Source: Lepidurus packardi (Eukaryota; Arthropoda; Branchiopoda; Notostraca; Triopsidae). Taken from it: a stretch of 64,000 nucleotides of DNA. The DNA is taken from assembly GCA_023053545.1 (NCBI GenBank), contig JAKZAN010000005.1, forward strand, positions 9,486,001 through 9,550,000, written 5' to 3'. The position numbers were made by a program, and so were the translations under genes. The notes under the pieces were generated by a model. The model made no database searches. It was not told where the DNA came from and worked only from the letters and a program-made list of their open reading frames with translations. Below, piece after piece: positions 8,401-59,202 of this stretch (its first letter is position 1; each line of letters opens with the position of its first letter).

Positions 8401-11400
8401 TGGAAGATCCCCGTTGGTAGCTCAGTGATTTTATTCCCGTACAAAACTCTAACAAGATGAAACGAAAGGACCGACAAAAGTTTTTGTTAGTGCTTTGAAA
8501 ATGAACGATACGTCGAAACTGCATACTTACAGGGAATTTAGAGTTCTCAAGCCTTGGAAAGCATCTGGAGCAATTTTGGCGATTTGATTATTGCTAAGGT
8601 CACTATCAAGGATATACCCAAGTTTTTAGCGAGTTTAGATTACGTATATGATTAAAACTTACATCCTCTTCAGTTTATTGTAAGCCTTAAAAGCTTTCGG
8701 AGGAATTTCGGTGATTTGATTTTGTTCCAATCGCCTAAAGACATAAAAATGTTACGAGTATTGTCTCTCTCTAACCAAAATAAGTCTCCAAGTTTACAAG
8801 AAAATATAAAAAGCACATTTTTAGGTCCTTGTGAGACTTGGAGTCATTACACTAGTCTTTTTCCAAGATGGCGACATGATCACAGGGAAGCGTGGAGCTA
8901 TTGGAAACGCCGCCATCTTGGAATTGTCCCAGATGACCTAATACAACCTGGAGGAGGCTCACGGGGGGCTTGATTTCTATTAGTATCCCCACAGGCAGCC
9001 TTGCAAAAACTGCAGAATCATATTAGACTTACAGTTCTGTGATACTGTAGGGCAAATATAACGGAATCCGGGTCATAGCCTTGTCTCTGCAGTCCACAAT
9101 TCCATCGGTACATTTGCAGGAAGTGGGACAAGGTGGCTCAACTACGCACTCCCCGGAAGATCGTTCCTGCTGGCCGCCTACGAGCGTTCAAAAGGTTATA
9201 CGAAACCCGCCCCTGAACTGTCACAGTCTTTCTTTTAATTATTCTACCCATCAAAAACTTACCAGCACACTTGAAGTCTGCGTCGCCCAGGTCGGTAATG
9301 ACTTTGCCTTTTAAGGAGAACGGGGCATGGCATCGTGTCAGCAAGCCCATTTTATTATTCCGTCGTAAAAAACGAGCGAGCCAAAGTAAGTTGCAGTCGC
9401 AGACGAATTTGTTGTCTGCCAAGCGCAAAACGCGAAGCTTGCCCAATCCATCAAAGACACTGACACGCAAAAACGCTAGGTTGTTATTATTCAGCGTTAC
9501 AATTTCCAAATCCTTCAATCCTTTTAAGGCGGACTCGTCCACGCATGATATCTGGTTATTATCCAATTGTCTAACAAATCGCCCAGGGGAGATGAACCAT
9601 AAAAAGCGATAAAAAAACGTTTTGTAAACAAAATTGATGGTTTCTGTCTTAACACTTACAAGTTACGGAGTGATAAAAGACCATGGAAAGACCGTTTCCC
9701 CACCACTGTCAGTTGGTTATGGCTTAAATCCCTACACGATAAAAGGGACAAAATGAATTAGCTGACGAAAGAAGCGACATGGCTAAGATTACAGTGTGAA
9801 TAGCAACACTGACTGCTTCCATTTCCTGATCAAAGAGATTATTAGACGTCAGTTTGTCTTTTCGGATTGACTTTTGACAGCAAAACAATGTAAAATGTCC
9901 GTTTCCATAAATTATATATATATAAAAAGATTTACAACATCAATTTTATCGCAAACTTGGCAAACGTTGATCGATTCGACCCCAACTATCTAGATTTGCC
10001 AATCTTTTTTTACCCATATTGAATACGAAGTATTTCTTCCGATTTCTGCATTGACTCTAGTGTCAAATTTACGAATATTTTTCTATTATCCAATATCGAA
10101 TCTACTTCAATTTTTAAGATTAATCGATTTAGCGAGTCCAAGGGTTAAGCTTTCAGGAATTTCAAGACTCGCTGCATGCGAAACCACACATTTTTTATTC
10201 CATACAGGATATGTTAGCTAAGAGAGCCTATTGTTGTGTATTTCTTCAGATATATCGAATCTCTTTGATCTCTTTTTGAGTCTCGTCAATTCCCCGGAAT
10301 TTTTTCTGATGCTATCAAGTTTTGCAATACTATCCAATTCCTTTGAATTCATCACACAAAAATTTCGATCCTCTGGATCATATTTATTTTATTTCCCCTG
10401 TTTTCTTCAATTTCCTCACATTCCCATCGTTTAACGCAGTAGCAAATCTTGGAGAATATTAAACACTTGAGATCTTCTTCGGCTCCCACATTTTATAAAA
10501 AATAAAAAATTTACTCAAGGCGTTGTATTTTACGATATTAAATTCGTTATTTTTTTTATAGATTTTTCCCGAAGGCTATAAAAGCGAGCCCGATAAAAGC
10601 AATACACTTGGCGGCAGCCTTGTTCTATAGTATTAAATTACCCCATAAATTACTAAGGGCAGGAGTTATGTCCATAATCGTCTGTGTGACATGGTACAAA
10701 TCTGTCTATTCTTTACCCCCCTCTTTTAGCTGCCTGAAACAAGGGACAGATCATGAAATACTCTGTTTAATGAGTATAAAGGATATATATCTGCAAGATA
10801 AGAAAAACCCTGGCAGTCCGGGAAAAAAATAAAAGAGTCGAATGTGAGATCCGCCCATTAACAAGGAAAAGGTCGTTCAGAACCTGCAACAGTCATAGGA
10901 AAAGTTCGGCCTGCTACGCGAAATGCTACACTCAGCGCCATAATTCATTGGGTTCCGGGAGGGTTAAGGGGGGCGTTTATCCTTTTTATATTTCTTCTGC
11001 CTCAACCAGAGAAACTCCCTTTGAGTTAAGGCTTTCCTTCACATTCATTTAGTGCCGAAAGCTCTTTCTTATATCTCTTTTCCTAATCCTCCATTCCGAT
11101 CTCGGCGTACAAATGCAAAGCTTAAGTACCCTTAACCATTAAAAAAAAAGGAGAATACCAGCGACATAAAAAAAATCCTCACATTTCATAGAAAACCCCA
11201 TATGGAAGAAAGTGGGAAGTTATAGGAAGGTAGCGTTGGATTTTTCCCGAGAAAATTTAAATATTTTTTTTCTCTAAAATATTTGAAAAGTCTGCTATTC
11301 TAGCACCTATACAAGGCTTCCTCTCGCACCCTCTCGCAGATCAAAGTCCGGTCACGCCGCCCCCCTTTTGGAAACAAATCTCTTAAATTCTCCAACTTGA

Positions 11401-35425: not shown

Positions 35426-36213
35426 CTATGGATAAACAGAAAAGTTGTTGGGTCCAAAAAACTGTAAATTGTTAAAAGCAAAGTATCCCTGAAATGACAC
35501 GTGACTCACGATTGAAGTTAAAGAACCTTGTCCTGGACAAATATAATCGACAACAACCCCTTTGGGTTGTGGGTTATCTAGTGTTGGGTCACAGTACGGG
35601 TACATGTTCATATGCCAGTGCATGAAACTTGGGGTAGTTTGGTTTATTCCGAGATCGACATAGACGAGTTGAATTTTAGTTATGGTTACGGGACTGGAAA
35701 AGCTGATTTCAAAATTACCACTGGCCGTATCGCCGGGATAATATTCGCTTTTATAGTACAAGCCCGGGTTATTACAAAACACGTGCTCGGGATTCGAATC
35801 ATTCGAAACTCCCGGACTTCCTGGATTAACAGACGTAAAATTGACTAAGCTCTTGTAAAGTGAAAGCGAGTCAAGCGATGTTAAGAAATTACTTCCTTCA
35901 CTGCCTACCAAGATACACGATGAGTTTGCACCTGTCCAATTCAGATATAAGAGTCGTTAAAAAATATTCTTCCATTTTGCCGTTATATTCATAGGCATTA
36001 AACAAATTTCTTACCTTCCCAATCGACTGTGAAACATCCTGGCGTTTTATCACATAAAGCCATGCAAGCTAGCACTGAAAAAGCAGTCACTTCTACCATT
36101 ATTGTGAAGCAATGAGGGTTAACTTGTCGGTGATAGAGTATTGCCGAAGTATCTGGATAATTAAACGATATTAAAATCAGGGCCAACCCCGTTATATGTA
36201 AGAAGAGCCCCAT
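35426..36213 (-). CDS. Array copy 1: secreted PAN-like + beta-domain protein (two exons)
   Basis: Exons 36213-36015 and 35931-35426 join in phase 1 to give 234 residues. The start is the ATG before a hydrophobic leader (MGLFLHITGLALILISF); an earlier in-frame start would bury that leader. Residues about 25-78 carry the PAN/apple-like spacing C-x3-C-x5-C-x11-C (CMALC..GC..SSC). The remaining 150 residues form a beta-rich domain with the family signatures YYKS, FEISFSSPV, MHWHMN and FQGYFAFNNLQFFG, then end at VYP. Known PAN domains bind proteins or carbohydrate. The second domain resembles a galactose-binding-like sandwich only in general pattern. It is the most diverged intact copy and stands alone at the slit-proximal end. 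Confidence 0.8.
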
Positions 36214-38215
36214 GCTTCCGACGGTATCAGTCTCTGGACAACTGCTATGAAATTCATTCACACCAAAGTACTTCTTGCTGACCAGTTCTGCGCACTAAGC
36301 TTAGAATTGGACATACAGCTGTATTCAGGTCACTGGAAATTGAGGCACGACGCGCATAAGAAGGAACAGTCCCTGAAAATCATAAAAACTGGGAAGGGGA
36401 CCGAATTGGATTCTTGCTTATTAATACTTGCTTATTACACCGACCTGTAAAATATGTTCTTCCAGGACAAAACTTGCGCAACCGAGTTATATAGATTATT
36501 TTTCCGTGTCCTAATTTTCTCCGTTTGTGATTATTATTTGACTTTAGTGTATTGTGTAAATTTATTATACTAGACGACAAGTTCAGTCAAGTTTTGAACA
36601 CGTTGGTCAAGACTAAAGTGTAATGGTTCACAGTATAAAGGTAAACCTAAATTCTGGTCCAGACCACCAAGATGCACTGGGCACAGTGATCGGTAATGTA
36701 TCTTGAAAAGCGAAGTTTAGATTGAACCTTTTATGCGTTAGCGTCTGCTAGTTCGATTTGGAATAAACTTAATAAAATGTGTACCCTTCCAAATATTTGT
36801 GCGGTATTTCGGAGTAACTTGGTCACAAAAATCATACAGATAAGCTATAAAACTGCAGATTGCTTCTTCTATTATGCTGAAATGTTAAATTAGATATGCT
36901 TGACAATAGGCTGTGGGTCAAATACTGGTATACAATTATACTAGGAGAGTACATATAAAGAAGAACCCCGTGTTAGCATCTTGTAAATTGTGTAACTGAA
37001 TAAATCGCAATATGGAATCTCTCATCAATTTCCATTATTGCTGTCAAGCGAAACGAAGTAATGTTGACCCATGGCCTTTGCTCGTTGGCGATGGATTATA
37101 TCGCACGGGGAAGTCGTATAACATTCCAATGTTTCTGTGTAAAAACTCACCTGTTATTCTTGTCATAGAAAGGTGCCTCCGAGTAAGATAGCATGTATAG
37201 GTGGTCGGGATATAATGCTGTCTATCACTCGGAATTGGGAGTAACTGTCGGCCACTTTTAGACAACATCGAGCAACAATGTTTTTTATGTTTTCGAGCAA
37301 CAATGTTTTTTATACACTGCTACACCATACACCATAGTCAATGTTTCTTGGCTGCCATATTGTTTGTTACTAATGGTGTACTTCGATCACTAAGTCTTGC
37401 TGCACATTTTACCTAAAGCTAATTACTGTCGTTCAAGCTTGCGTTAAGGATGAATGCCAGAGTCTGTGGTTATACTAAAGATACAAATTATTAGAACAAC
37501 TAAGATCATGTAAATGGTTAAACTTGACCCTGTGAATTATATTTCGCAAGGTGTAAGCGTTTAAGCTATCATTGACAGCAAAACAAGAGTGAACTCAAAA
37601 CCATAACACTTAAGATTGCGATACTGCACAGAATGGGATAGGTTCATTATTATATTAGGAGGTGAGGGTACAGTTTAACTGCAATTGATTGAATAACTTG
37701 AACTATTGTTTTCTATCCATCATGAAAAGCACTGGACAAGGAAGAATGACAGGAATACATCTATAGGAATTGTATTCGAAACTTACTTATTCGACTCTTC
37801 ATTGGATCTTGCCACTATGGTCCTTGTTTCCTAATGTTCACACGAGATTGTAATTTTCTAGTTAGGGAAGACATTTTAATGTTCGGATATATTTTTGTAA
37901 ATAAATTCAGAATAATTATCCATCTTTATTGATATTACATCTTTCAAGAACATTACTTAGGATGTGCTGGATATTTTAAGCATTGCTGCGTTCAAGTATT
38001 GAAATGCAGCAATGTTATTCCACAGCAGCAATAGCTTGGTAGTAATACGGCATTTTATAGGCAAATAATGTAATTGTAACGTGGATTTCAAAGCAAACTC
38101 ACTATGGGATCACTTCACGAAACCACATAACGGAAGAAAATCCAAACTCACAGCTGAATAAATACAATAGGATCAATCAAATACTATGGATTTTGGAAAC
38201 AACAAGGAAAGCCAA

Positions 38216-38724
38216 TTATGGAAACACGACCAGGTTGTTGAGTCCAACAAATTTTAGGTTATTGAAAGAAAGATACCCTTGGTAAATTACATCGATTGAA
38301 ATGGAATTTACAGCGGGGCTACTGGGGCAATTGAACTGGAGGACAACTCCTGTGGGCCTAGGGGAAGGTGTTGGACATTCACAGTATGGGTAACTGTTCA
38401 AGTGCCAATGCATGAAGCCTGGGACAGTTTGATTTATTATGCCGAGGTCAATATAGGACAGTTGAGTTGCAGTTACAATGACGGGATCCAAGAAGGTAAT
38501 CACAAAACCAAGCGCGTACCCGCTTGCCTCACTATATGCGCTTTTATAGTAAATGGCTGGGTCAGAAGAAAACGCGTTCAGGGGATCGGAATCATTCGAC
38601 ACTCCAAAACTACTAGGTGTAATAGATACGTCAACCTGGCTGGTATAAAATGTTAAGGAGCCGTTCAGCGACGACAAAAGTGTACCACCTCCAGTGTTAA
38701 CAAAGATGCATGGTGGATACGATT
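38216..38724 (-). pseudogene. Array copy 2: exon 2 only, first exon deleted
   Basis: An open exon 2 (169 residues) is nearly identical to exon 2 of copy 4. It has an intact acceptor (TTGCCAG, read on minus), CIFVN, YYKSAY, MHWHLN and YQGYLSFNNL signatures, and ends at VVFP. The exon that should supply the signal peptide and three of the four PAN cysteines is absent. Where copy 4 has exon 1, this copy has short CAGCGATTTCAGCATCGAT-type repeats (38730-38795) and then resumes homology. It is therefore a 5'-truncated copy. It could still be used if spliced to the phase-compatible exon 1 of copy 3 upstream. Confidence 0.8.
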
Positions 38725-38729
38725 CTGGC

Positions 38730-38795
38730 AAGCAGCGATTTCAGCATCGATTTCAGCAGCAGCGATTTCAGCATCGATGTCAGATTTTAGCATTT
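38730..38795. repeat. Short tandem repeat at the exon-1 deletion scar of copy 2
   Basis: GCAGCGATTTCAGCATCGAT-type units occur about three times (with TTTCAGCAGCAGCG variants). They replace the segment that holds exon 1 in the duplicate block, so they mark the deletion junction. Confidence 0.7.
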
Positions 38796-39287
38796 TAATG
38801 GTACTTTGAAACGCACTTTCCTGCTAACGCTTGTCGTGGGAGTAATCATTGCTTTGGGGTCTGCCTTGCCTAATGCTTAGAAGTACTTCGATCAGCACCT
38901 GGAGTCGCATATCGGGTACTTATTACTCTTGGCTATATCCTAGTATTGTCACATGAATTTCCACGTAGAATTATAGTTGTTAGCTTCTCCCCTATTTCTA
39001 CGGAATGAACTGGTGGTTCCGGTAATCGACAACTCTTAACATACGCCTCATGGGCAGCATTCAATTCATAATTTTATTTTATTTCAATCTATTCAATCTG
39101 TAGAGCGGTAGCATTCAATGCTTCTTCATAACTCAGAAAACTCATAACTCATAACTGCAAAACATTTAGAATACGACTTGCTAGTAACAAATCATCACAA
39201 AATTATTATTGACTCAATTTGTAGTGAATCTATTTTGCAAAGAATTAGTGAAGGAGTAAAAAAAACACATGAAAATATAAAGCACAA

Positions 39288-40072
39288 CTATGGAAATAGA
39301 AGGACGTTATTGGTCCCGAAGATTTTCAAACTATTAAAAGCCACATAGCCTTGGAAATATATATGCAATGAAACGGAGCTAACAGCGGGACCTGCAGGAC
39401 AAAGGTAATTGACAGTAATTCCCTTAGGCTGTGGATTATCCAGTTTAGGGTAGCAGTACGGGGTACCGTAATTCATATGCCAGTGCATAGAGGTTGAAGT
39501 AGTTTCGTTTGCATAGACTAACTGAATGTTCGTTACAATTACCGAACGCGAAAAGGTAATCGCAAAACCCGAGGTAGTACTAACCAGTGAAGATCGAAAC
39601 GTGCTCTTGTAATAAGTCATTGGATCAGCGTGAAATGCGAGTTCGGTATGTGAATTACGGTAAACACCCATCACACCCGGCTTGATAACTAAGTCGATTA
39701 AATTGCTACTGTAGAACGCTTGCAAACCATTGAATGACGACAAGAGTGTTGAACCCGTGTTTCCAACCAAGATGCAATGTGAGTTTGTACCTATATTATG
39801 TAAACTTAGCTTTCAACTTATACTTCATAAATCCGGTAATAGCAGCTTTTCTGCACAAATGAAATACATTTCTTACCATTCCAAATGATTGTGTGGCAAT
39901 GCTGAGTTTGGTCGCAAAGAGCCATGCAAACTAGACGTGAGACTGTAATTACTGTTTTCATAATGGTAAAATGATAACTATTTTTTGCTTGGTGATACTG
40001 TTTTGCCCAAGTACTGGAACAAAAAAGTATTTGGAGAGTACATATTTTAACTAACAGAAGTAAGAGCTTCAT
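39288..40072 (-). CDS. Array copy 3: secreted PAN-like + beta-domain protein (two exons)
   Basis: Exons 40072-39877 and 39790-39288 join in phase 1 to give 232 residues. A leucine-rich signal peptide spans 1-23 (ends SSTWA). PAN-like cysteines C-x3-C-x5-C-x11-C occur in CMALCDQTQHC..SHC. The beta-domain carries FAITFSRSVIV, MHWHMN, two cysteines (TPYC, YLC) that may pair, and FQGYVAFNSLKIFG. Its own change is GVYRNSHTE, where the sister copies read GVSNDSHTE. It is the block A partner of copy 5. A TATA-like GTATAAAATAT lies about 115 bp upstream of the start (minus; 40179-40189). Confidence 0.85.
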
Positions 40073-40139
40073 GTCAGTAACTAGAGAATGTTAAAAAAAT
40101 ACTGAAAGAATACTAGTAGTGCTGCTACTCGAAGTCAAT

Positions 40140-40187
40140 GTTCATTGCTGACCTATGCGCATTGCTGTTGGTGTGATATATTTTATA
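40140..40187 (-). promoter_or_regulatory. Putative core promoter of array copy 3
   Basis: Read on minus, TATAAAA (40187-40181) precedes an initiator-like TCAGCAATGAAC (40151-40140). The intervening CAACAGCAATGCGCATAGG is retained upstream of copies 5, 6 and 7 (46069-46101, 47649-47682, 49245-49281). The TATA is kept in copy 5 and lost in copies 6 and 7. The transcription start is not proven. Confidence 0.45.
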
Positions 40188-40213
40188 CAAGGCAAGTTAT
40201 ACAGCCCTTAAAC

Positions 40214-40253
40214 GTCTTCTGGCTGCCCAGGTAGTATAGGGCAGCCAGAAGAC
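40214..40253. repeat. Perfect 15-bp inverted repeat
   Basis: GTCTTCTGGCTGCCC (40214-40228) and its exact reverse complement (40239-40253) are separated by 10 nt. Block B has only the right arm (GGGCAGCCAGAGGAC), so the left arm is new and accompanies a deletion of the intervening sequence. Confidence 0.8.
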
Positions 40254-40318
40254 CCTTCGTATCTGTTATTCATTTGAGTTTTCGACATAGACGAGTTCAA
40301 TTTTAGTTATGGTTACGG

Positions 40319-41110
40319 GCACAGTATAGAGGTTTACACAGTATGGTAACAGGGGTATCCTTCCAATGTTAAGGTTTTCTCACAAATCTCTCGGTCCCAA
40401 GAGGATGTGAGGGTACGAAGGCTTATATGGGGGATGGATTCCCAGACTGTGCCATGTACCCCCATGTAGGCATTCCTAATCTACTAGAAAAAGGGTTCGA
40501 GAAGAGAACAAAACATTCACAAAACGGGGGACTGGTGACCTTTCTCTCGGGCACTCTAGGGAGTTTTGGGCTGACGTGGGGTCCTACCGGCAACGCGCGC
40601 ATTTGAAAGTGTTTTTGGAAAAATACTAAACTTTCAAAAGTTAGTAATATTTAGGAATGGTTGTAAAGTACTAATGTAATGGATAACTCGTATGTAGACA
40701 TAAATAGTCATAACAACACATATAGACATTAATATACATGGGTATTTTATAGTATATGGGGTTAAACCTGTATACTATAAAACACCTATGTATGGGTTGC
40801 AACATAGACTGCCTCCTCGTGGGGCAACCTGTGTAACGTGAAATAGTGTATAATGTGTATACGTGTTGTGCTTTGACCTAGTTAATTCATCTTTTATTTT
40901 AAGCTCACATAGTTTAAAGCAATAGATTTAAATTACGCGCTTTGTAAACTGTCGTGACCTTTTTTGAACTGCACTGGGAGGTTTGCGAATGTACCCTTTC
41001 ATTTTCTGGCCTTTTACCTGAATATTACTCGGGGGACCGAGAAGGTCGTCAGAAAACCTTAACATTGGAAGATAGCCCTGTTAGCATACTGTGAAACCTC
41101 TATACTGTGG
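40319..41110. mobile_element. Non-autonomous DNA element with ~80-bp terminal inverted repeats
   Basis: The left end reads CACAGTATAGAGGTTTACAC and the right end, on the other strand, CACAGTATAGAGGTTTCACA. The arms stay similar for about 80 bp, sharing CCAATGTTAAGGTTTTCT and CTCGGTCCC. The interior has no transposase and contains another palindrome, TTTTATAGTATA..TATACTATAAAA (40744-40782). I find no clear target-site duplication, so I do not assign a superfamily. It sits between the two duplicated blocks. Confidence 0.75.
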
Positions 41111-41124
41111 TTTGGCTCTTCAAT

Positions 41125-41890
41125 CCTCCCCCGAAGAGAGGAAAGTTTCACCGACCTTGGTCAGGACCTTGGACAGTTATTAAACAGAATATCGGATCAA
41201 GTTGTCGGCATTAAAAACACCATTCCGGGTGCAAGAAAAGTTGTGCATATGAACAATTTAAAGAAGGGACCCCTTTTTCAAACTGCCAGGGCAATAACTA
41301 AAACAAGGCACAACGTTGTCAAGTGTGTATTTAAATCAGACAGAATAACTATTCCATCGATGGCCAAGCTGCCACTGAACTGGACAGACCCACACCGAGT
41401 TGCTAGGGCGTGGGCCTTTTATAGGTGACGGAAGGCAATAAACCAACCGTCAGTGAGGAAGAAGGGTTCTGGTGCCATCCGTGTGGTCGGAGACGTAATA
41501 GGGGTCAGTTATACAATCAGGGCAAGGTCCAAAGACAAGGCACAAGTTATATAACTGAGAGAAAGGAAAAGGAGACAAGTGATGGTTGCCAGAGAGCTGG
41601 CCGGGGAAAGTAACATTTGCCAGAGACAAGGGAAATCCATCTAAATGGTCAATATAAGTTTCAACACCCCTAGCTCCGAACTCATCTCATGGGGACCCGC
41701 CAAATCCGGACCATAGACAGACATCATTGGACGGAGGCCCGAGAATGCTAGAGGAAGAAACAGAAGATGATGTGAGAATTCGACGTCGACGCTTGGTCGA
41801 TTGGGAAGGTGGCGATATCCCAATTGAGGATTCAGCGAGAGCACCGTCAGTTGGACACGGTGAAGACAGTTTTGAAAGAGAGCGTTGATT
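41125..41890 (+). pseudogene. Ty3/gypsy-type pol 3' remnant (integrase C terminus), frameshifted
   Basis: In the plus frame FHRPWSGPWTVIKQ (about 41148-41189) is followed, after a one-base frameshift, by ISDQVVGIKNTIPGARKVVH and then MNNLKKG. This is the G-P-W..V-V-H-x-N-x-L-K pattern at the C terminus of Ty3/gypsy integrases. Further on, a charged tail (LEEETEDDVRIRRRRLVDWE, 41750-41888) resembles the basic C-terminal tail of such polyproteins. No reverse transcriptase, protease or LTR is recognisable. It is a dead fragment inserted in the array. Confidence 0.65.
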
Positions 41891-43823
41891 GACAAGGACT
41901 CGGCATCCTCCTGTGCGTTTAGCGTATAATGGGCCTGGGAGACCTGTCTGCTAAGCTATTGTTGTCAATTGATTAACAGAAATTTGAACCTCGACTATCT
42001 ATATAAAGGACTATGCATCGTAAATACAACAGTCTTACGTTAAACCTTGATAACTTTACAGAAATGTTCTTCCTGGACAAAACTTGCGCTACCGAATTAT
42101 TTGGATTATTCGTCCGTGCTCTAATTTTCTCAGTTTGTGATCATTATTTGACTTTTGTGTATTGTGTAAATTTTTTATAGTAGACGACAAGTTCAGTGAA
42201 GTTTTGAACACGTTGGTCAATACTAAAGTAAAGGTTCACAGTTTAAAGGTAAACCTAAATACTGGTCCAGACCACCAAGATGCACTGGGCACAATGATGG
42301 GTAATGTATCTTGAAAAGCTAAGTTTGGATTGAACCTTTTATGCGTTAGCATCTGCTAGTTCGATTTCGAATAAACTTAATAAAATGTGTACCCTTCCAA
42401 ATATTTGTGTGGTATTTCGGAGTAACTTGGTCACAAAAATCATACAGATAAGCTATAAAACTGCAGACTGCTTCTTCTATTATGCTGAAATGCTAAATTA
42501 GATATGCTTGACAATAGGCTGTGGGTCAAATACTGGTATAAAATTATACTAGGAGAGTACATATAAAGAAGAACCCCGTGTTAGCATCTTGTAAATTGTG
42601 TAACTGAATAAATCGCAATGTGGAATGTCTGATCAATTCCCATTATTGCTGTCAAGCGAAGCGAAGTAATGTTGACCCATGGCCTTTGCTCGTTGGCGAT
42701 GGATTATATCGCACAGGGAAGTCGTATAACATTCGAATGTTTCTGTGTAAAAACCCACCTGTTATTCTTGTCACAGAAAGGTGCCCCCGAGTAAGATAGC
42801 ATGTATAGGTGGTCCGGATATATTGCTGTTAATCACTCGGAATTGGGAGTAACTGTCGGCCACTTTTAAACAACATCGAGCAACAATGTTTTTTATGTTT
42901 TCGAGCAACAATTTTTTTTATACACTGCTACACCATACACCGAAGTCAATGTTTCTTGGCTGCCATATTGTTTGTTACTTATGGTGTACTTCGATCACTA
43001 AGTCTTGCTACACATTTTACCTTAAGCTAATTACTGTCGTTCAAGTTTACGTTAAGGATGAATGCCAGAGTCTGTGGTTATACTAAAGATACAAATTATT
43101 AGAACAACTAAGATCATGTAAATGGTTAAACTTGACCCTGTGAATTATATTTCGCAAGGTGTAAGCGTTTAAGCTATCATTGACAGCAAAACAAGAGTGA
43201 ACTCAAAACCATAACACTTAAGATTGCGATACTGCACAGAATGGGATAGGTTCATTATTATATTAGGAGGTGAGGGTACAGTTTAAATGCAATTGATTGA
43301 ATAACTTGAACTATTGTTTTCTATCCATCATGAAAAGCACTGGACAAGGAAGAATGACAGGAATACATCTATAGGAATTGTATTCGAAACTTACTTATTC
43401 GACTCTTCATTGGATCTTGCCACTATGGTCCTTGTTTCCTAATGTTCACACGAGATTGTAATTTTCTAGTTAGGGAAGACATTTTAATGTTCGGATATAT
43501 TTTTGTAAATAAATTCAGAATAATTATCCATCTTTATTGATATTACATCTTTCAAGAGCATTACTTAGGATGTGCTGGATATTTTAAGCATTGCTGCGTT
43601 CAAGTATTGAAATGCAGCAGTGTTATTCCACAGTATCAATCGCATGGTAGTAATAGGGCATTTTATATGCAAAGAATGTAATTGTAACGTGTATTTCAAA
43701 GCAAACTCACTTTGGGATCACTTCACGAAACCACATAACGGAAGAATATCCAAACTCACAGCTGAATAAATACAATAGGATCAATCAAATACTATGGATT
43801 TTGGAAACAACAAGGAAAGCCAA

Positions 43824-44609
43824 TTATGGAAAAATGACCAGGTTGTTGAGTCCAAAAATTTTTAGGTTATTGAAAGAAAGATACCCTTGGTAGTTAGCAT
43901 CGATTGAAATGGAATTGACAGCGGGGTTAATGGGGCAATTGAACTGGAGGACGACTCCTGTGGGCCTAGGGTAAGGTGTTGGACATTCACAGTATGGAGA
44001 AACGTTCAAGTGCCAATGCATGAAGCCTGGGACAGTTTGATTTATTATGCCGAGGTTAATATAGGACAGCTGAATTGCAGTTACAATAGCAGGATCCAAG
44101 AAGGTAATCACAAAACCAAGCGCGTACCCGCTTGTCGCACGATATGCGCTTTTATAGTAAATGGCTGGGTCAGAAGAAAACGCGTTCAGGGGATCGGAAT
44201 CATTCGACACTCCAAAACTACTAGGTGTAATAGATACGTCAACCTGACTGGTATAAAATGGTAAGGAGCCGTTCAGCGACGACAACAGTGTACCGCCTCC
44301 AGTGTTAACAAAGATGCATGGTGGATACGATTCTAGCAAGCAGCAATTTCAGCATCATCACATATATACATATATACATTACGTATATTTTGAAAAAAGC
44401 ATTTGATTACCTCTCCAAATGGTTGTGTGACATCCTGCCGTTTGTTCGCAATGAGCCGTGCAGGTAAAAACCGAAGCACTGGGCACTTCTTTCATCAGGG
44501 TGAAGCGGTACGCCTTATTCGAAAGGCGATACCTCTTTGCCAAAGTACTGGTACAGGAGACCAGCAAGAAAAATGCACATATGTTAATCGGCTGCAAGAG
44601 GAGAGTCAT
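43824..44609 (-). CDS. Array copy 4: secreted PAN-like + beta-domain protein (two exons)
   Basis: Exons 44609-44411 and 44332-43824 join in phase 1 to give 235 residues. It has a signal peptide (MTLLLQPINICAFFLLVSCT), then PAN-like cysteines CTAHCEQTAGC..YPPC with the same C-x3-C-x5-C-x11-C spacing as copies 1 and 3. Its beta-domain belongs to a distinct subfamily with GGGTLLSSLNGS, NQTVPGFMHWHLN, a CECPTPYPRP insert and YQGYLSFNNLKIFG. Copy 2 is its 5'-deleted twin. Of the two, this one keeps the complete gene. Confidence 0.83.
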
Positions 44610-45215
44610 GTTGCCAAGCTAACAGTCTTCGGTTGAATGGTCCACTTATGGTACTTTCTAGTACATGTATTTATTGTTGACAAATATGCGCAGTGGAAGG
44701 GAGTGGCAATACCGGATATGGCATGCTTCTAATGGTAGCGTGAAACGCACTCCTGCTAACACTTCCTGCTAACGCTTGGCGCGGGAGTAAGCATTGCTTT
44801 GGGGGTCAGCCTTGCCTACTGCTTAGAAGTACTTCGATCAGCACCTGGAGTCGTATATCGGGTACTTACTACTCTTGACTATATCCTAGTACCGTCACAT
44901 GAATTTCCACGTAGAATTATAGTTGTTAGCGTCTCCCCTATTTCTACGGAATGAACCGGTGGTTCCGGTAATCGACCACCCTTAACATACGCCTCATGGG
45001 CAGCATTAAATTCATAATTTTATTTTATTTCAATCTATAGAGTGGTAGCATTCAATGCTTCTTCATAACTCAGAAAATAGACGTGCAAAACATATAGAAT
45101 ACGACTTGCTCCTAAGAAATCATCACAAAATTATTAGTGACTCAATTTGTAGTGACTCTATTTTGCGAAGAATTAGTGAAGGAGTAAAAAAATCACATGA
45201 AAATATAAAGCACAA

Positions 45216-46001
45216 CTATGGAAACAAAAGGATGTTATTGGTCCCGAAGATTTTCAAACTATTAAAAGCCACATAGCCTTGGAAATATATATGCAATGAA
45301 ACGGAGCTAACAGCGGGACCTGCAGAACAAAGGTAATTGACAGTAATTCCCTTAGGCTGTGGATCAGCCAGTTCAGGGTTGCAGTACGGGGTACCGTAAT
45401 TCATATGCCAGTGCATAGTGGTTGAATTAGTTTCATTTGCGTAGACTAGCTTAATTTTCGTTACAATTACCGTACGCGAAAAGATAATCGCAAAACCCGA
45501 AGCAGTACTAACCATTGAGGATTGAAACTTGCTCTTGTAATAAGTCATTGGATCAGCGTGAAATGCGAGTTCGGTGTGTGAATCATTGGAAACTCCCATC
45601 ACATTCGGATTGATAACTACGTCGATTAAGTTGCTACTGTAGACCGCTTGCGAACTGTTGAATGACGACAAACGCGTCAAACCTTTGTTGCCAACCAAGA
45701 TGCACCGTGGACTTGTACCTACAATATGTAAACTTAGGCTTCAACTTATGTTTAAGAGATATTTCAAATTATGTTTTTCTAAGGAATTGAAAATAAAGTT
45801 GTTACCATTCCAAATGATTGTATGACACTCCGGAGTTTGGTCGCAAAAAGCCATGCAGAAAAACGGTGAGACTGTATTCACTCTTTTCATAATGGTGAAA
45901 TGATAACTATTATTTGCTTGGTGATACTGTTTTGCCCAAGTACGAGAACCAAAAAGTATTAGGAGAGTACAGGTCTTAAGTAACAGAGGTAAGAGCTCCA
46001 T
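45216..46001 (-). CDS. Array copy 5: secreted PAN-like + beta-domain protein (two exons)
   Basis: Exons 46001-45806 and 45718-45216 join in phase 1 to give 232 residues. It has a signal peptide of 23 residues (ends SRTWA), PAN-like cysteines CMAFCDQTPEC..PRC, and a beta-domain with GVSNDSHTELAFHADPMTYY, FAIIFSRTVIV, MHWHMN and FQGYVAFNSLKIFG. It is the block B partner of copy 3. The two differ by scattered amino-acid changes in both exons, including the PAN loop (PRC for SHC). The promoter-proximal GTATAAAATATG (about 46103-46114) is retained. Confidence 0.85.
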
Positions 46002-46545
46002 GTTAGTAACTAGAAAATCTTAGAAAAATACTGAAAGAATACTTGTAGTGCTTCTACTCGAAGTCAATGTTCTTGCTGACCTATGCGCATTGCTGTTGGT
46101 GTTACATATTTTATACAAGCCAAGTTACACAGCCCTTGAGCTTTGGTGCGTAAAAAAACTGTTTATCAGGTGATAAAAAGACGTCTATAGGGTAAATGAG
46201 GTAACCAGGTAGTACAGGGCAGCCAGAGGACCCTTCGTATCTGTTATTGAGTTGAGTTTTCTCCCTTGTAACCTTAGAACTTATATAGTTCGATAATACA
46301 TAAAGCACATCCTGTTATTCTCAATATGGCTCATGTATCATTCTCATTAAGCATGACTTTCTATCCCCTAGCGTATTTTATTGGGCATAGAAGTCAAACG
46401 CGGTGTATAATAGAACTAATATTCCAGCAATGGCCACAGAGAAAGAACAACAGACAAAATACATTTCAAGTTCAAGTCAAGAATTAATATTGATTGTCGT
46501 AATAGTAAGGTAAAGCGACTCATTTAAAAATATGCACATTGTTTG

Positions 46546-46600
46546 GTCCCATGAGCATAATAAAGCATAGGAAACCAAATATCCAGTAAAACGTGCATAT
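46546..46600 (-). pseudogene. Relic of an exon-2 C terminus of the array family
   Basis: Read on minus, TTTTACTGGATATTTGGTTT with GGACCAAACAATGTG matches the SFTGYLVFNALRLLGPNNV region of copy 8. The same phrase recurs at 48140-48162. These fragments lie about 200-250 bp 3' of copies 6 and 7 and have no surrounding open frame. Confidence 0.55.
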
Positions 46601-46796
46601 CGTGATCAGCATTCAATTCGTGATTAATTTAATTAATTTCTATAATTTAAATTCTTTCATGAAGTCAAATTATAGGCACGGAAAAAAGGGAATTTGACTT
46701 GCTCCAGCAAATCAGCACAAAATCCAGTTAAACTGACTATATTATGAAGCATATCGTGTAAAAGAGTAAAGAATCATACGAAAATATAAAGCACAA

Positions 46797-47581
46797 CTAT
46801 GGAAAGAGTAGGACATTATTGGTTCCGAAGATCTTCAAGTTGTTAAAAGCAAAATATCATACGAAAGTTACATGTAATGACAGGGGATTCACAGCAGGAC
46901 TGGCCGAACAAAGGTAATTTACAGTTATTCACTTAGGCTGTGGATTAGCCCGTTCAGCATAACAGTTCAGGGAGCCGTAATTTATATGCCAGTCCATAGT
47001 GGTTGAAGTAGTTATATTTACAAAGATTAACTGAACTTTCGTTACAATTACGGAACGTGAAAAGGTTATCGCAAAGCCCGTGACAGTACTAAAAGTTGAT
47101 GATTGAAACGCGCTCTTGTAATAAGTCACTGGATCAGCGTGAAATGCGAGTTCGGTATGTGAATCATTGGAAACTCCCATCACATCAGGATTGATAACTA
47201 CGTCGACTAAATTGCTACTGTAGAACGCTTGCGAACCATTGAATGACGACAAAAGTGTTGAACCCGTGTTTCCAACCGAGATGCAATGTGGGTTTGTACC
47301 TATATTATGTAAAGTTAGCTTTCAACTTATACTTAAGAAATCTGGTAGTAGCAGCTTTTCTGCACAAATGAAATACATTTCTTACCATTCCAAATGATTT
47401 TGTGGCAATGCTGAGTTTGGTCGCAAAGAGCCATGCAAACTAGACGTGTGACTGTATTCACTCTTTTCATAATTTTGAAATGATAACTATTATTTGCTTG
47501 GTGATAGTGTTTTGCCCAAGAACGGGAACAAAAAAGTATTAGGAGAGTACATATTTTAACTAACAGAAGTAAGAGCTCCAT
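46797..47581 (-). pseudogene. Array copy 6: premature stop in exon 2
   Basis: Exon 1 (47581-47386) and the start of exon 2 (from 47299) are intact and encode a leader and PAN-like cysteines like those of copy 3. In exon 2 the conserved glycine codon after PQPK is TGA (46929-46931). A second in-frame TGA replaces the glycine of the FQGY motif about 80 bp later. Homology then continues to the normal stop position at 46797. A translated product would be 188 residues and lack the last third of the beta-domain. The TATA box seen upstream of copies 3 and 5 is also missing, so it is probably decaying. Confidence 0.85.
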
Positions 47582-48139
47582 GTCAGTAACTAGAATGTTA
47601 GAAAACTTCTGCAAAAATGCAAGCAGTGTGCTGCTACTCGAAGTCATGTTTATTGCTGACCTATGTGCATTGCAGTTGGTGGCGAAAGAATTTATTGGAG
47701 GCAATTTATACAGCAATCTTGAACATTGGCGCGCGAAAAAAAAAATATGTCTCTGGCCATAAAATGTTGTCCATGGGGTGAAGGAGGAAGGAAGTTATCC
47801 AAGTAGTTCAGTGCAAAGGACCTTTCATACCTGCCATTGATATGAGTTTTCTACCTTAGTAACCTTATAACTTTATGTAGTCCGATAATACATAAAACCA
47901 CATCCGGTTAGGTTTCATTTTATATCGCTCTCTCATATATATGTCGCTCTTATTAAGTCCAAGCATGAATTTCTACCCCAGTGTATTTTATTTGGCAGAA
48001 AAGTCAAAAGCAATGTACAAGAACTTATTGTTCCAACAATGGACACTGAGGATCAACAACAAACTAAATACATTGCAAGTTCAAGTAAAAAATTATTAAT
48101 GATTGCAGGAATAGTAAGGAAAAGCGACTCAAGCGTTGG

Positions 48140-48165
48140 AAGCCAAATATCCAGTAAAACGTCAT
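48140..48165 (-). pseudogene. Second relic of an exon-2 C terminus
   Basis: On minus, ACGTTTTACTGGATATTTGG (48162-48143) matches the relic near 46546 and copy 8. Only about 25 bp is recognisable. Confidence 0.45.
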
Positions 48166-48388
48166 GGGCAGCATTCAAATCGTGATTACTTTGACTGATT
48201 TCAGTAATTTCAATCTGTAAGGTGTGGTAGCATTCTTCAATGCTTCTTCATAAGGTTGAATTATAGACATGAATGATAGGAAACTGACTTGTTCCAAGCA
48301 AATCAGTACACAATCGAGTTATAAGGGACTATATATTATGAAGCATTAGTGTAAAGAGTAAAGAATTATACGAAAAAATAAAGCACAA

Positions 48389-49173
48389 CTATGGAAAGAG
48401 AATGACGTTACTGGTTCCGAAGATTTTCAAGCTGTTAAAAGCAACATAGCCTTGGAACGATAAATGCAGCGAAATGGAGGTCACAGCAGGACTTGCAGCA
48501 CAAAGGTAATTAACAGTAATTTCCTTAGCTTGTGGATCAGCCCGTTCAGCATAACAGTACGGGGTACCGTAATCCATATGCCAGTGCATAGAGGTTGAAG
48601 TAGTTTCATTTGCATAGACTAGCTGAACTTTCGTTACAATTACGGAACGTGAAAAGGTTATCGCAAAGCCCGAGATAGTACTAACCAGTGAAGATTGAAA
48701 CACACTCTTGTAATAAGTCATTGGATCAGCGTGAAATGCGAGTTCGGTATGTGAATCATTGGAAACTCCCATCACATCCGGATTGATAACTACGTCGATT
48801 AAATTGCTACTGTAGAACGCTTGCGAACCATTGAATGACGACAAAAGTGTTGAACCCGTGTTTCCAACCAAGATGCAACGTGGGTTTGTACCTATATTAT
48901 ATAAACTTAGCTTTCAACTTACACTTAAGAAATCCGGTAATAGCAGCTTTTCTGCACAAATGAAATACATTTCTTACCATTCCAAATGATTGTGTGGCAA
49001 TGCTGAGTTAGGTCACAAAGAGCCATGCAGATAAGCTCGGAGGCTGTATTCACTTTTTTCATAATAGTGAAATGATAACTATTACTTGCTTGATGATATT
49101 CTTTTGCCCAATTATGGAAACAAAAAAATATTAGGAGAGTACATATTTTAATTAACAGAGGTAAGAGCTCCAT
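48389..49173 (-). CDS. Array copy 7: secreted PAN-like + beta-domain protein (two exons)
   Basis: Exons 49173-48978 and 48891-48389 join in phase 1 to give 232 residues. It has a signal peptide (MELLPLLIKICTLLIFFCF), PAN-like cysteines CMALCDLTQHC..PRC and the full beta-domain with FAITFSRSVIV, MHWHMDYG, YLCAA and FQGYVAFNSLKIFG, ending at ILFP. It is closely related to copies 3, 5 and 6. The upstream conserved block is present (49245-49281) but no TATA follows it. Confidence 0.84.
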
Positions 49174-49748
49174 GTTAGCAACAAGAGAATCCTCCGAATA
49201 CCTGTGAAACAATGGTAGTATATAGTACTGCTTCTCAAATCAACGTTCATTGCTGGCTTATGCGCAATGCAATTGGGGGTGATTCAAATTATCTCAGACA
49301 AGTTCGACAGCATTATTGATCATGGGTGTGCTAAAAAATGTTAGTTGTTCGGTCTCAGGTGTCCATTGGGGAAAAGAGCTAATCAGCTATAGTACAGCGC
49401 ACGGGACCCTTCGCTTCTATCATTGATTTGGGTTTTCTTCCTAGTAACCTTAAAGCTTGTGTTGTTCGATAATACATAAAACCACATCCGGTTAGGCTGC
49501 AATGTGTCGCAATGTGACCACTGTGGATCTAGCATCAGCTACATACTATTTTCCTTTCTTAACTGAATTGACATATGCTGATGCGCTTTACCTTTTCTGT
49601 ACTCACGCGTGGCTTATTATTAGTTTACAAGTGCAGTGAAATAGTAGTTTACAATAGTGATGTTAACTACAACAATAGTTAAACCTACAGTAAGTTGTGT
49701 TCAACTTAAGCATTACTATTGATTGCGCTAATAGTAACGAAAATGAAT

Positions 49749-50420
49749 TCATGGAAAAATAGTCACATTGTTGGGTCCCAAGAGTCGCAAAGCGTTGAAA
49801 ACCAAATATCCAGTAAAACTTACGTGGTGTGTAATTGCCCTCACGTTAAGCGAAGATAGACATTTAAAAGTGACAACAACTCCCACATGCTTTGTCTGCT
49901 TTTCACTGATTTTGACTACATGGTACCCATGTGCCAGTGCATATACTGGTTGAAGCAGTCTGATTGATGACGAGATCGAGATGGATTAATTGAATGGCAG
50001 TGATGTTTACGGAATGAAAATCTAATGGTAAACCCTAAGTCATATAATATGCTTGAGTTCTGAAACCGACTCTTATAGTAAAAGAGCAACCGCTAGAAAA
50101 GGCATGTTCAGCAGGCAGAAAGCCGCTGGTAGCTCCTCCAGTTACTGATGCCACGGATGATACCACCAGGCTACTATAAAGAAGCACGGAACCGCACGGA
50201 ACTGTTGACCGACGGCTAAACTTTCTTGGTTTGATATGCTACCAAGACATATTTTGGCTGCGTACCTGTTGGTTTAAATCTATCTATTAATTTTTGGTCA
50301 TGTAGGACCTACAAATGTATTACTTTTCCAAGCGAATGCTTAGCACCTAAGAGTTTTGTCACACAAGATCATGCGAATGAAAGCTGAATAATAGTCGTTG
50401 GCTAGCGTTCGATTTGTTCA
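49749..50420 (-). pseudogene. Array copy 8: decayed family member
   Basis: The exon-2 footprint runs from an acceptor-like CAG (exon start at 50265) to 49749 and ends SFTGYLVFNALRLLGPNNVT before a stop. The PAN cysteine near the exon start is lost (KYVLVAYQ for xCILVGN). Several stops and frameshifts interrupt the middle, yet INQTASTS remains recognisable. A PAN-exon relic (about 50330-50410, minus) still reads MILCDKTLRC. It is the oldest visible pseudogene of the array and marks its far end next to ribokinase. Confidence 0.75.
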
Positions 50421-54782: not shown

Positions 54783-54838
54783 AGATCGCAGCACGTATAG
54801 GATAAAGACATTATTCTTGCGAGTGTAAGGGCTTGAAC

Positions 54839-57800
54839 ATGTGGCTCGCGTATCTTCTACTGGTGTATTGTGTTAGTTGTGAAGCGGTGCTATCCAAACC
54901 GAGTTCGTACGTGAACGACTGGAAATTGACAGAGAAGGAGAATGTTCGCTCCGTGTCTTCTGGTGAAGGCAACCGAGCGAAGGAAGGTCCTTTCTCGGAC
55001 GTGGTGGTAAACGACGACTATCCAGCAGACCCATCGATTGCCACGACTCAGGATTTAGAGGCCGCGGTCCGCGCACTTTCTTATCCTCAACTCTTTTATG
55101 ACGACTCGAAACAGATTCAGCGGACGGTGCCCGAGACGGCTAACTCAGCAGTTCGTCCCAATAGCACACGCGTTGAGGCTGACCGTAACAGACACCAGAC
55201 GATCGACTTGTCCAACGAAAGTGGGGTAGTGGTCCATCGAGGTAACGATCGCCATTCGCGCACGTCGTTTACCGACAGCCAGGCACCTTTAAGTCGTACG
55301 GGAACCATTGAAGACTCGTATACAAATTCTAATGAACTTGCTGAGGGAACCAAGAAGGGAGAACAATCGCTAAATCCAATCCACGACGCTGACCAACGTA
55401 GTAGTCGTTCGGCTGCTTCAAGGACCTTTAAAGCAGGCGGCGGTCGTTATTACCCACCTGCTAAACCCTCCGTAGGATACGGTGCCCCTAACCCGGTAAC
55501 CCCGTGTCCACAAACTAATCCGGGGGTTTATGCTCCTCCCCGCCCAAAGCCGCCTGTGGTTTACCCTCCACCTCGTCCGCTTCCGACTTATGGAGTGCCG
55601 ACCCTACCCAGCCCGAAACCTGTAGTTTATCCGTCTTACCCGGCTCCGCTACCGGCGCCTTCGCCTGTATTGGTGTTCATACCCCAACCAGCACCTCAAC
55701 AGCAATACCGGCCCCAAGTGATCCAACAGTCTGTCCCTCAAAAGCCCTGGTTGGATGGTTGGCTCAATAAGCCGCATTTCAATCCTCTGGCTTGGAAAGC
55801 ACAAAAGGCTCAACTTATATTGAGTCATTTTAACAAAGGTAACGTTCAGCAAAGACCCCATGTTTATGGGCCACCGCGGCCACCAAAGGGACCATCCCCT
55901 TCGTACGGTGTGCCATTGGAGCCAGCGTATTATAAACCGCATCCTTTACCTTGCTCTCATCCTAATCACCCGTACGACGACCCGTCGGTTGAGTATGTAC
56001 CCAGCAAACCGGTCATTAGCTACCCGTCACCTAGTTACGGCAATCTACCAGTTGAACAAATTACCAGTACACCTACCGTTAACTACCCGTCTCCAAGTTA
56101 TGTTACTCCAGCGAACTACCCTTCCTATGGGTCTTCTGTTTCACCCCAACATATAGCTTATCCCTCCACGAGTTACGTCACTCCAGCTAACTACCCTTCA
56201 CCCCAACCTATAGCTTATCCTTCCACTAGTTACGTCACTCAAGCGAACTACCCTTCATTCGTATCTTCAGTTACACCTCTACCTATAGCCTACCCGTCTC
56301 CTAGTTATGTCACTACGGCCAGCTACCCACCCCATGGGTCTTCAGTTTCACCTTTACCTAATTACCCGTCTCCGAGTTACGTTGCTCCAACCAGCTATGC
56401 TTCTTATGGGTCTTCGATTTCACCCGTTCCTGCAAACTATCCTTCCGTAACGCCCCCTACGTTCCCATCCTTTCCCCCTTACACTCCTTCACCCCAACTT
56501 GCTCCCCAACCTTCATCCTACCCCTCTGAATCCCACTCAGCCGGATACCCATCTGTACCTAGTTCGGGACATAATTCCAAACCGACTTCAACTTATGTCT
56601 TGACCCAGCATTTGGTCTTTCCATCGGTACCTGCTTCAGCACACCCCACAATACCGCAGTACGCATACCCTGCTCCCACAACTGGAACCTATGCTTTTCC
56701 TGGTTACGAAGACCAACCGTACGACGCCTTCGCCGGCCAAGGCAAGGCTATTAACTCGAACTATAAAGAAAACGAGATCTTGACCACTCCCCATACAAAT
56801 GACCCAGAACCCTACCAGACTCCCGGTCCCTTCTACGGTTCTTACGCCGAGCCCTACAAACCGTCTAAACCGCAGCAACATCCGCACTATGAAAGCACCA
56901 CTGCAGCTCCAATAAGCTATAACAATATCCCATTTGCCAACCAACTATACAACTCACACTTTACGACACCTCAGCCCATTTATATCTCAACAACTTCAGC
57001 GCCAGCTTCTTACGCCCCTACCACGCCTCGTTACCTGTCCTCGTTCACAACCATCAAGTATCCACAAACGTCGGCTTCAGTCTACCCGTCGCCTTATAAC
57101 ACACTACCCTTACGTCCCCAAGTAGTCGTTGTAACATCGGGCAGTAAAACCGCTGAACCCACTCCTTTGACCAACTACGGGAATTTCATAGCGCCCAACT
57201 GTTCCAGAGAGAATACGGACACCGTAGGTGCCCATAGCCAATATCCAGCACAGTCAGGGTTTGGAGGGTTTGGACCGTCCTCCTGTGGAGGGTCTTGGAG
57301 AATATTAGGTGCGAGAGACATCGACGATAACTTTCCTATCAATCCAGAACCGATTTACTTACCTCCACACCCGTTCCACCAGCTACCGCAAGTATTCAAC
57401 ACGGTGCGGCCAACAACATCTGCTCCAACGTTCTTTACTGCAGCTCAACCCCATTTCTATCCAGCACCTCCGAACCAGTTCTACACCGCAGCAACCCCAG
57501 TGCCCTTCCCGCACCCAAACAAAAACCATCAGAATGTCCTCATCTTCTCCAGCACGCGCTTACCCGTTGCGCCTCATCCGACGCCGTCGCCCACTTTTTC
57601 TAGTCGTACGCCGGATTTTGACGTACGCACTGCTCCGAAAGGTTCGGCAAACAACGACCAGCAGGTTAAAGCCACCCTCGTCGTCGAGGCGATCCGGGAC
57701 GCACTGCCCTTTCCGCCCATCGCATCTACCCCGAACTCTATCGTGGTAACGACTCCTGCTTCGACTTCAGCCTCCTCCCATCTCCTAGACAGCTTCTTTA

Positions 57801-59202
57801 CGCAACGACCCGTTCTCGAAGGGGAAATTTCGCCTTTCCTCTTCAGTAGAGCGAGCCCTCAAACAGGCCGCACTGTCCCGAATAAGACCATTTCCTCCCT
57901 GCCACTTTCGAACGAGAACATAAAGTTGCAAAACGATATCGATAGCACCAACTCGATTACTGACGAACCGGTTGCCACCCAGGCTCGTCTGCTGACTCGG
58001 GAGCTATCTAACGCCAACCTTCGCGTATTGGCCAAATACTTAGAAAAGGCTGGTCTAATTCCCTTAGTAAACTCATTAGGTAATAAACAGTCGAAAAAAT
58101 AATTAATGAAATTTATTGTAAGTAAAACATTGCCTCACAGAAAGCTTCACAATGTTTGCCCCTTCCAATTTGGCCTTCAACGAGCTGTCGTCCGAGTTTA
58201 ACTTTGAAAACAATATAGACACGCTGCGAGAAACTCTCTTGTACCATATTGTACCTCAGAGATGGAGTGCGAGCGAGTTTGTCAACGACTTGACGCTCCC
58301 TACGTCAGCTGGCTCTGCTCGTCTTCGGCTAAACGTTTACAACACGTCGTCGTCGGCGGTAAAAAGCGTTGATATCCTTAAAACACAAAGCTTGAATAGT
58401 TTTTCTCCTCCCTTTTGCGCTCTTTATTTGCTTTCGGGTGGGCTGGGTTGCTCTGTAGAATACCATAACCGTAAACGGAGCCAGGATGTTGTCGTTCGAT
58501 CTAGAAACCTTGCATGGAGTCGTTCATGTGATCGATAAGGTTCTGACGCCGATTCCAACCCAGACGGTTTTACAACAGCTTGAAAATACGGGTAAGGATC
58601 TCACATTCTGGGTCGGAAGAGATAAAGTCAACTAGATTTTTTATATTGAAAAAAAGGACTGCGTCGTTCGATGCTCGGAACGAGCCTTGCGACGATCCTA
58701 GAAGGTCCCGGACCCATTACCGTCTTCGTCCCATCCCCGGATGTCTTCTTCTCCCTCAGTGACGAAGAGCAAGCGTTGGTTAACAACGCTACTGCGTTTT
58801 CAGGTTTCTCAACCGTTAGCGGGAATTTGATTATACTTTAGATTTTAACTCCGGGGAAATCGTTTAGAAATGCTGTGGTATCACGTTGTCCCCGGCACCC
58901 ATTATTCCGAAGGATTACTCGACGGACAATGGCTGTCCACTGGGAGGAAGGCTGGCGAGCTACAAGTCCAGGTCTCGGCCGATGGGCGACAGCGTAAGTG
59001 AACAGAGACTTTAAACCAAATAAAAACAAAGAAAAGGGAAAAGCGGCTTTTCTCAAGCGTGTAGTTCTTTCCTGCAGGCCGACTGGTGGGCGTTAATGAG
59101 GCAGAGGTTGTGCGCCCGGATGTTACCGCCACGAATGGCGTCCTCCACATCATTAATCGAGTGCTCACGGTAGTGAAGCAGCGGCCTTCGTCATCTACTT
59201 GA
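54839..59202 (+). CDS. Secreted Pro/Tyr-rich protein with two C-terminal FAS1 domains (6 exons)
   Basis: Exons 54839-58079, 58141-58358, 58459-58591, 58657-58803, 58868-58993 and 59078-59202 splice in frame to 1329 residues. The ATG at 54839 precedes a signal peptide (MWLAYLLLVYCVSCEA). Residues 20-190 are charged and end at RSSR (187-190), a possible furin-type site. Residues about 200-970 are Pro/Tyr/Ser-rich, low complexity, with a 20-24-residue YPSPSYVTPANYPS-type repeat at about 390-535. FAS1 domain 1 (about 1050-1197) shows FTMFAPSNLAF, LLYHIVPQ and TVNGARM. FAS1 domain 2 (about 1200-1325) shows ITVFVPSPDVFF, LWYHVVPGTHYSEG and TNGVLHIINRVL. FAS1 modules mediate extracellular adhesion. 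The composition suggests a cuticle or matrix protein, possibly cross-linked through tyrosines; that is inference. The exon 4 acceptor follows an A-rich tract and is the weakest splice. Confidence 0.88.

Follow-up and report, generated by a model that had tools for sequence, protein, structure and literature searches.

In known proteins, PAN modules and discoidin-fold domains alike serve adhesion. Full apple domains have an outer (first-sixth) cysteine pair, and the galactose-binding-like superfamily includes F5/8 type C (discoidin) domains, CBM32, APC10/DOC and the N-domain of galactose oxidase. We investigated a tandem gene family that occupies 35.4-50.3 kb (minus strand) of a 64,000-nucleotide stretch of the Lepidurus packardi genome (GenBank assembly GCA_023053545.1, contig JAKZAN010000005.1, positions 9,486,001 to 9,550,000; the whole stretch is called the window below). 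The original prediction had described a family of secreted proteins, which it could not name, with a PAN-like part and a beta domain. Because both module types are adhesive in known proteins, we favour, with somewhat better than even confidence, a small family of probably secreted proteins that would act as lectin-like adhesives, either in solution or bound to a matrix. Among the titles listed by searches of open-licence literature, none dealt with a gene array combining PAN and discoidin-fold parts, which does not show that no such account has been published.

Array and two-exon design

Spliced models gave five intact two-exon genes, c1 (36213-35426), c3 (40072-39288), c4 (44609-43824), c5 (46001-45216) and c7 (49173-48389), with predicted products of 232-235 amino acids. 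A search of the 108.6-Mb assembly with exon 2 of c1 returned nine matches, including itself, at E ≤ 10. Seven fell on further exons of the array, at E values between 1.8e-41 and 1.2e-5, which confirms the tandem array, and one was a locus outside it (E 5.1e-16). The predicted eight copies or relics of one design stand as to array and design; as to integrity, five are intact, c2 is an open exon 2 without exon 1, c6 is a pseudogene copy with two in-frame TGA codons and c8 is a frameshifted exon-2 relic. Self-comparison of the array adds two exon-1 relics and one 38-bp exon-2 shard to the count.

In the splice models, all six copies that have both exons share a GT..AG, phase-1 intron. Its size in c1, c3, c4, c5, c6 and c7 is 83, 86, 78, 87, 86 and 86 bp (35932-36014, 39791-39876, 44333-44410, 45719-45805, 47300-47385 and 48892-48977). 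Exon 1 lies, in the same order, at 36015-36213, 39877-40072, 44411-44609, 45806-46001, 47386-47581 and 48978-49173, and exon 2 at 35426-35931, 39288-39790, 43824-44332, 45216-45718, 46797-47299 and 48389-48891. Exon 2 of the intact genes measures 503-509 bp; that of c6 was taken one to four bases short in the splice models and in the comparisons of substitution rates and of blocks. In c1, exon 1 encodes the hydrophobic N-terminus, common to the intact genes, and three PAN cysteines, and exon 2 encodes the last PAN cysteine and the putative jelly-roll domain. A TATAAA precedes the ATG by 115, 114 and 129 bp in c3, c5 and c6; in c1, c4 and c7 the 260 bp upstream of the ATG contain none.

The motif C-x3-C-x5-C-x11-C is present in all five intact copies, and the phase-1 intron splits it, so that the fourth cysteine is encoded by exon 2. 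The exon-intron plan and the divided motif are therefore as predicted. MHWH and [FY]QGY, which had been called constant, each occur in six of the seven full-length exon 2s; broken c6 has MDWH and a stop at the second site.

Exon-2 identities support the three subfamilies first proposed, namely c1, c2/c4 and c3/c5/c6/c7. Identity to c7 within its subfamily is 79-82%, c2 and c4 share 90%, and the other full-length copies are 41-48% identical to c1. The 37 N-terminal residues of c7 match only the four exon 1s of the c3/c5/c6/c7 subfamily. The locus outside the window (G000:C5, about 3834.46-3835.28 kb; exon 2 at G000:C5:3834771-3835277; called the C5 gene below) is likewise built of two exons joined in phase 1; its intron measures 74 bp, its motif is C-x3-C-x5-C-x12-C, and its protein is 26-32% identical to the array proteins. 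The gene models therefore indicate a design older than the array. No relatives were found in viral contigs with exon-2 alignments and two peptide patterns (27 stretches), or in prokaryote genomes with exon-2 alignments and one pattern (17 stretches). A profile search of PDB sequences had a sole match at E 1, which we read as chance.

The PAN-like module and the predicted C-terminal fold

PAN/apple families (PF00024, PAN_1; PF14295, PAN_4) share the core C-x3-C-x5-C-x11-C-[IVL] with the array. With hmmscan, PAN_1 was found in c3 (E 8.4e-4), c5 (8.2e-4) and c7 (1.1e-3), and more weakly in c1 (0.014), c4 (0.094) and the C5 gene (0.1); the reversed sequences of these six proteins gave no family at all. 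We aligned the N-terminal profile by hhalign with six PAN stretches, from six of eight loci taken out of the 24 PAN_1 matches in the genome. The four cysteines fell in register (E 1.8e-4, probability 49%), and reversed controls were empty. The array is not itself among the 24 matches. Against the assignment, none of the six spliced proteins passes the Pfam gathering scores (21.4 bits for PAN_1, 27 bits for PAN_4), the best reaching 19.6 bits (c3, c5). The module further differs from PAN/apple domains in being split by the phase-1 intron, and the outer cysteine pair is absent after the N-terminal stretch in c3, c4, c5 and c7; c1 and the C5 gene each have one additional cysteine, Cys35. Because most copies lack the outer pair, the N-terminal part is, from its sequence, best called a half PAN/apple module. 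The PAN-like claim thus holds, at scores below the curated cut-offs.

The strongest PAN_1 exons of the genome form a cluster of repeated-PAN genes at G000:C4:7166000-7175900 (C4:7.166-7.175 Mb), which looks like a ZP/apical-matrix gene of the nompA type.

We consider the array proteins probably secreted because of their hydrophobic N-terminus, which resembles a signal peptide, their cysteines and the N-glycosylation sequons found in every intact copy. A mean of 1.6 is often used for membrane segments. Beyond residue 30, 19-residue hydrophobicity windows reach 2.04 in c1, 1.65 in c3 and 1.78 in c4, so by this crude measure a membrane segment is possible in these copies, and the N-terminus of the C5 protein is weakly hydrophobic (1.29); both points speak against secretion. 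The late windows of c1, c3 and c4 fall within either the PAN module or one of the predicted strands. The predicted two-domain secreted protein thus keeps its two domains and its secreted look, with these later windows as a reservation.

A Pfam search and a structure prediction with fold search had been proposed together with the original claim. The former gave no match for the C-terminal domain and the latter gave a jelly-roll similar to solved galactose-binding-like (F5/8 type C) members. The models suggest that the domain is probably a galactose-binding-like jelly-roll of the discoidin/CBM32/F-lectin fold. The beta character of the domain is accordingly supported by prediction and a probable fold is added; a Pfam sequence match is still lacking.

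Several results weigh against this fold assignment. PF00754 (F5_F8_type_C) gave no hmmscan row up to E 10 in any copy scanned, with HMMER filters applied, and an hhalign comparison with six F5/8-type domains from the same assembly was negative (probability 0.5%). Sequence identity to the superfamily is 5-14% in the matches listed. The mean predicted local distance difference test score (pLDDT) was just 60-64, from alignments of 7-8 rows, and the models cannot be relied on over roughly the first 30 residues of exon 2. In the Foldseek search of PDB with the first model nothing reached E 0.001 (best 5.7e-3), and no ligand site was identified in the predicted domain. The fucose motif of F-type lectins (fucolectins), given as H-x24-R-x-D-x4-basic (PMC5712786), is absent from all seven proteins, c6 included, even with spacers of 22-30 allowed, which sets the array apart from that family. 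A BFVD fold search gave two matches at E < 0.001, one to a siphovirus protein that is uncharacterised and one to a Klosneuvirus protein with collagen repeats. Elsewhere in the assembly, a single 922-aa frame on contig C138 holds five F5/8-type repeats, which score equally and are spaced 426 bases apart.

A predicted strand carries H-x-H, as MHWH in the intact copies and c2 and as EHFH in the C5 gene; it is lost in c6. In the models it is a candidate ligand or metal site. A disulfide is likely between the PYC and YLC/FNC cysteines in the array copies (C178-C196 in c7 numbering).

The favoured explanation can be put as follows. The signal peptide-like N-terminus would direct the protein out of the cell. 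The four cysteines of the half module may pair first-fourth and second-third, by analogy with apple domains, and this module would bind a partner protein or glycan. The jelly-roll loops may attach to a glycan or to some other ligand at a surface; in solution or bound to a matrix, the protein would act as an adhesive or lectin-like binder. The array itself has grown via tandem and block duplication, has been partly homogenised through gene conversion and goes on losing copies.

Duplication, conversion and selection

Duplicated blocks are extensive. The c2 and c4 blocks are 95.7% identical over 2.3 kb, the c3 and c5 blocks 87.4% over 1.4 kb, and 45097-47912 matches 46690-49496 at 77.6%. The open exon 2 of c2 lies at 38216-38724, and the counterpart of the c4-side exon-1 stretch (44357-44726) is absent. 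One exon-1 relic (36782-36956) is 67.6% identical to the c7 exon-1 region, and its duplicate (42390-42564) 68.8%. The exon-2 shard (40282-40319) is copy-1-like, with 97.4% identity to 35655-35692. The c8 relic spans 49752-50280, by tblastn for 49752-50010 and by reading frames for the remainder. All of these are on the minus strand. These blocks and broken copies agree with the predicted birth and death through tandem duplication. The shard adjoins an element of ~0.8 kb (40320-41109) whose terminal inverted repeats are 79 bp long and match at 88.6%; it is probably a DNA transposon or a miniature inverted-repeat transposable element.

The ratio of nonsynonymous to synonymous change (dN/dS, NG86) in exon 2 was 0.28-0.54 in each of the seven pairs inside subfamilies, counting those with broken c6 and partial c2; dS saturates in comparisons between subfamilies. 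These values point to net purifying selection on exon 2 on average, and positive selection by NG86 was not seen there. For exon 1, c3/c6 was the sole within-subfamily pair above 1 (1.16, on 2.5 synonymous changes), and the five others gave 0.38-0.78, with c6/c7 the highest, from a small number of synonymous changes. Across c3, c5 and c7, residues vary as often in predicted strands (15/58) as elsewhere (29/108; p 1.0).

We also compared exon, intron and flank divergence in six block pairs. For c3/c7 and c6/c7, divergence is 11-15% in the exons, 28-29% in the flanks and just 5-6% in the intron; in c5/c6 the exons differ by 13-18% against 25% for the flank. In c3/c6, exon 1 (7%) and intron (6%) contrast with exon 2 (16.3%) and flank (14.8%). 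The pair c3/c5 shows the reverse pattern, with intron 33%, exon 1 13.8%, exon 2 10% and flank 7.0%. In c2/c4, exon 2 differs by 5.9% and the flank by 3.9% (p 0.06). Two of these results tell against the favoured explanation: exon 2 of c3/c6 diverges as the flank does, and the c3/c5 exons have diverged as much as, or above, their flanks (exon 1, p 0.005). We read the patterns as constraint combined with conversion tracts, which confuse the comparisons; gene conversion is visible in the array.

The divergence data bear on three other explanations. The array might consist mostly of dead remnants of an old family, with open frames kept by chance or by conversion from one functional gene. Several copies are indeed broken and c2/c4 exon 2 evolves as flanking DNA does; however, five two-exon models are intact, with splice sites and cysteines conserved, and the exons of c3/c7 and c6/c7 lie far below flank divergence. 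We consider this explanation very improbable.

The main rival, to which we give a limited but real chance, is that the products are structural matrix proteins (cuticle, gut lining, egg coat or resting-egg shell) whose modules make protein-protein contacts and whose copy number means dose and not diversity. It agrees with the average purifying selection on exon 2, with the lack of excess change outside strands, with the homogenisation of parts of the array by conversion and with the nompA-like reading of the strongest PAN genes. It fits less well with three subfamilies of just 41-46% whole-protein identity inside one array, and with the loss of several copies.

Ranked third, and in our judgment unlikely, is a diversifying recognition locus (pathogen, gamete or self) with birth and death and copy-specific binding loops. 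The six damaged or incomplete pieces (c2, c6, c8, the shard and both exon-1 relics), deep divergence between subfamilies and a fold that is also that of fucolectins and CBM32 would suit it, as would the c2/c4 exon 2, the c3/c5 exon 1 that outpaces its flank, and the exon-1 ratios of c3/c6 and c6/c7. However, the low exon-2 dN/dS of every pair and the even spread of variable residues argue against it. Diversifying selection was not seen in the dN/dS or strand-versus-other residue tests, which counts against the arms-race view of the original prediction. Its rapid adaptive divergence is thus not supported in exon 2, where dN/dS stays below 0.55, and some exon-1 comparisons lean the other way.

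Surroundings and biological meaning

The window has other features. At 3304-9662 (minus strand), open reading frames (ORFs) with, on reading, EGF, laminin-G-like and leucine-rich-repeat parts follow a Slit-type guidance gene order. At 54806-58538 (plus strand), a very long Pro/Tyr-rich ORF precedes a second ORF, in which a fasciclin domain was recognised (E 5.4e-13). In the assembly, many COX1-like pieces on C1, C2, C4, C5, C6, C21 and C38 need the mitochondrial code, and several have stops regardless; one copy is almost open, with a single stop in 403 codons, when read in the invertebrate mitochondrial code. Such pieces probably derive from mitochondrial DNA copied into the nucleus. COX1 and genome features suggest an arthropod, perhaps a branchiopod crustacean; the three best solved COX1 chains among those listed read as mammalian and do not help to place it. 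The exact 22-base SL1 sequence, a nematode leader, is absent. The small contigs C52, C214 and C43 carry open COX1-type genes, which suggest bacterial contigs within the assembly.

An orphan domain thus gains a probable fold, and the family escapes Pfam profiles. A bolder and rather doubtful extension is a lineage-restricted secreted pattern-recognition class, made of a minimal half-apple and a sequence-orphan discoidin-fold domain with a conserved H-x-H strand, in which a birth-and-death locus would give copy-specific glycan recognition. If the proteins are matrix proteins, this would be a routine tandem family. Should glycan binding differ from copy to copy, the array would form a compact natural set for following how a lectin-like locus diversifies.

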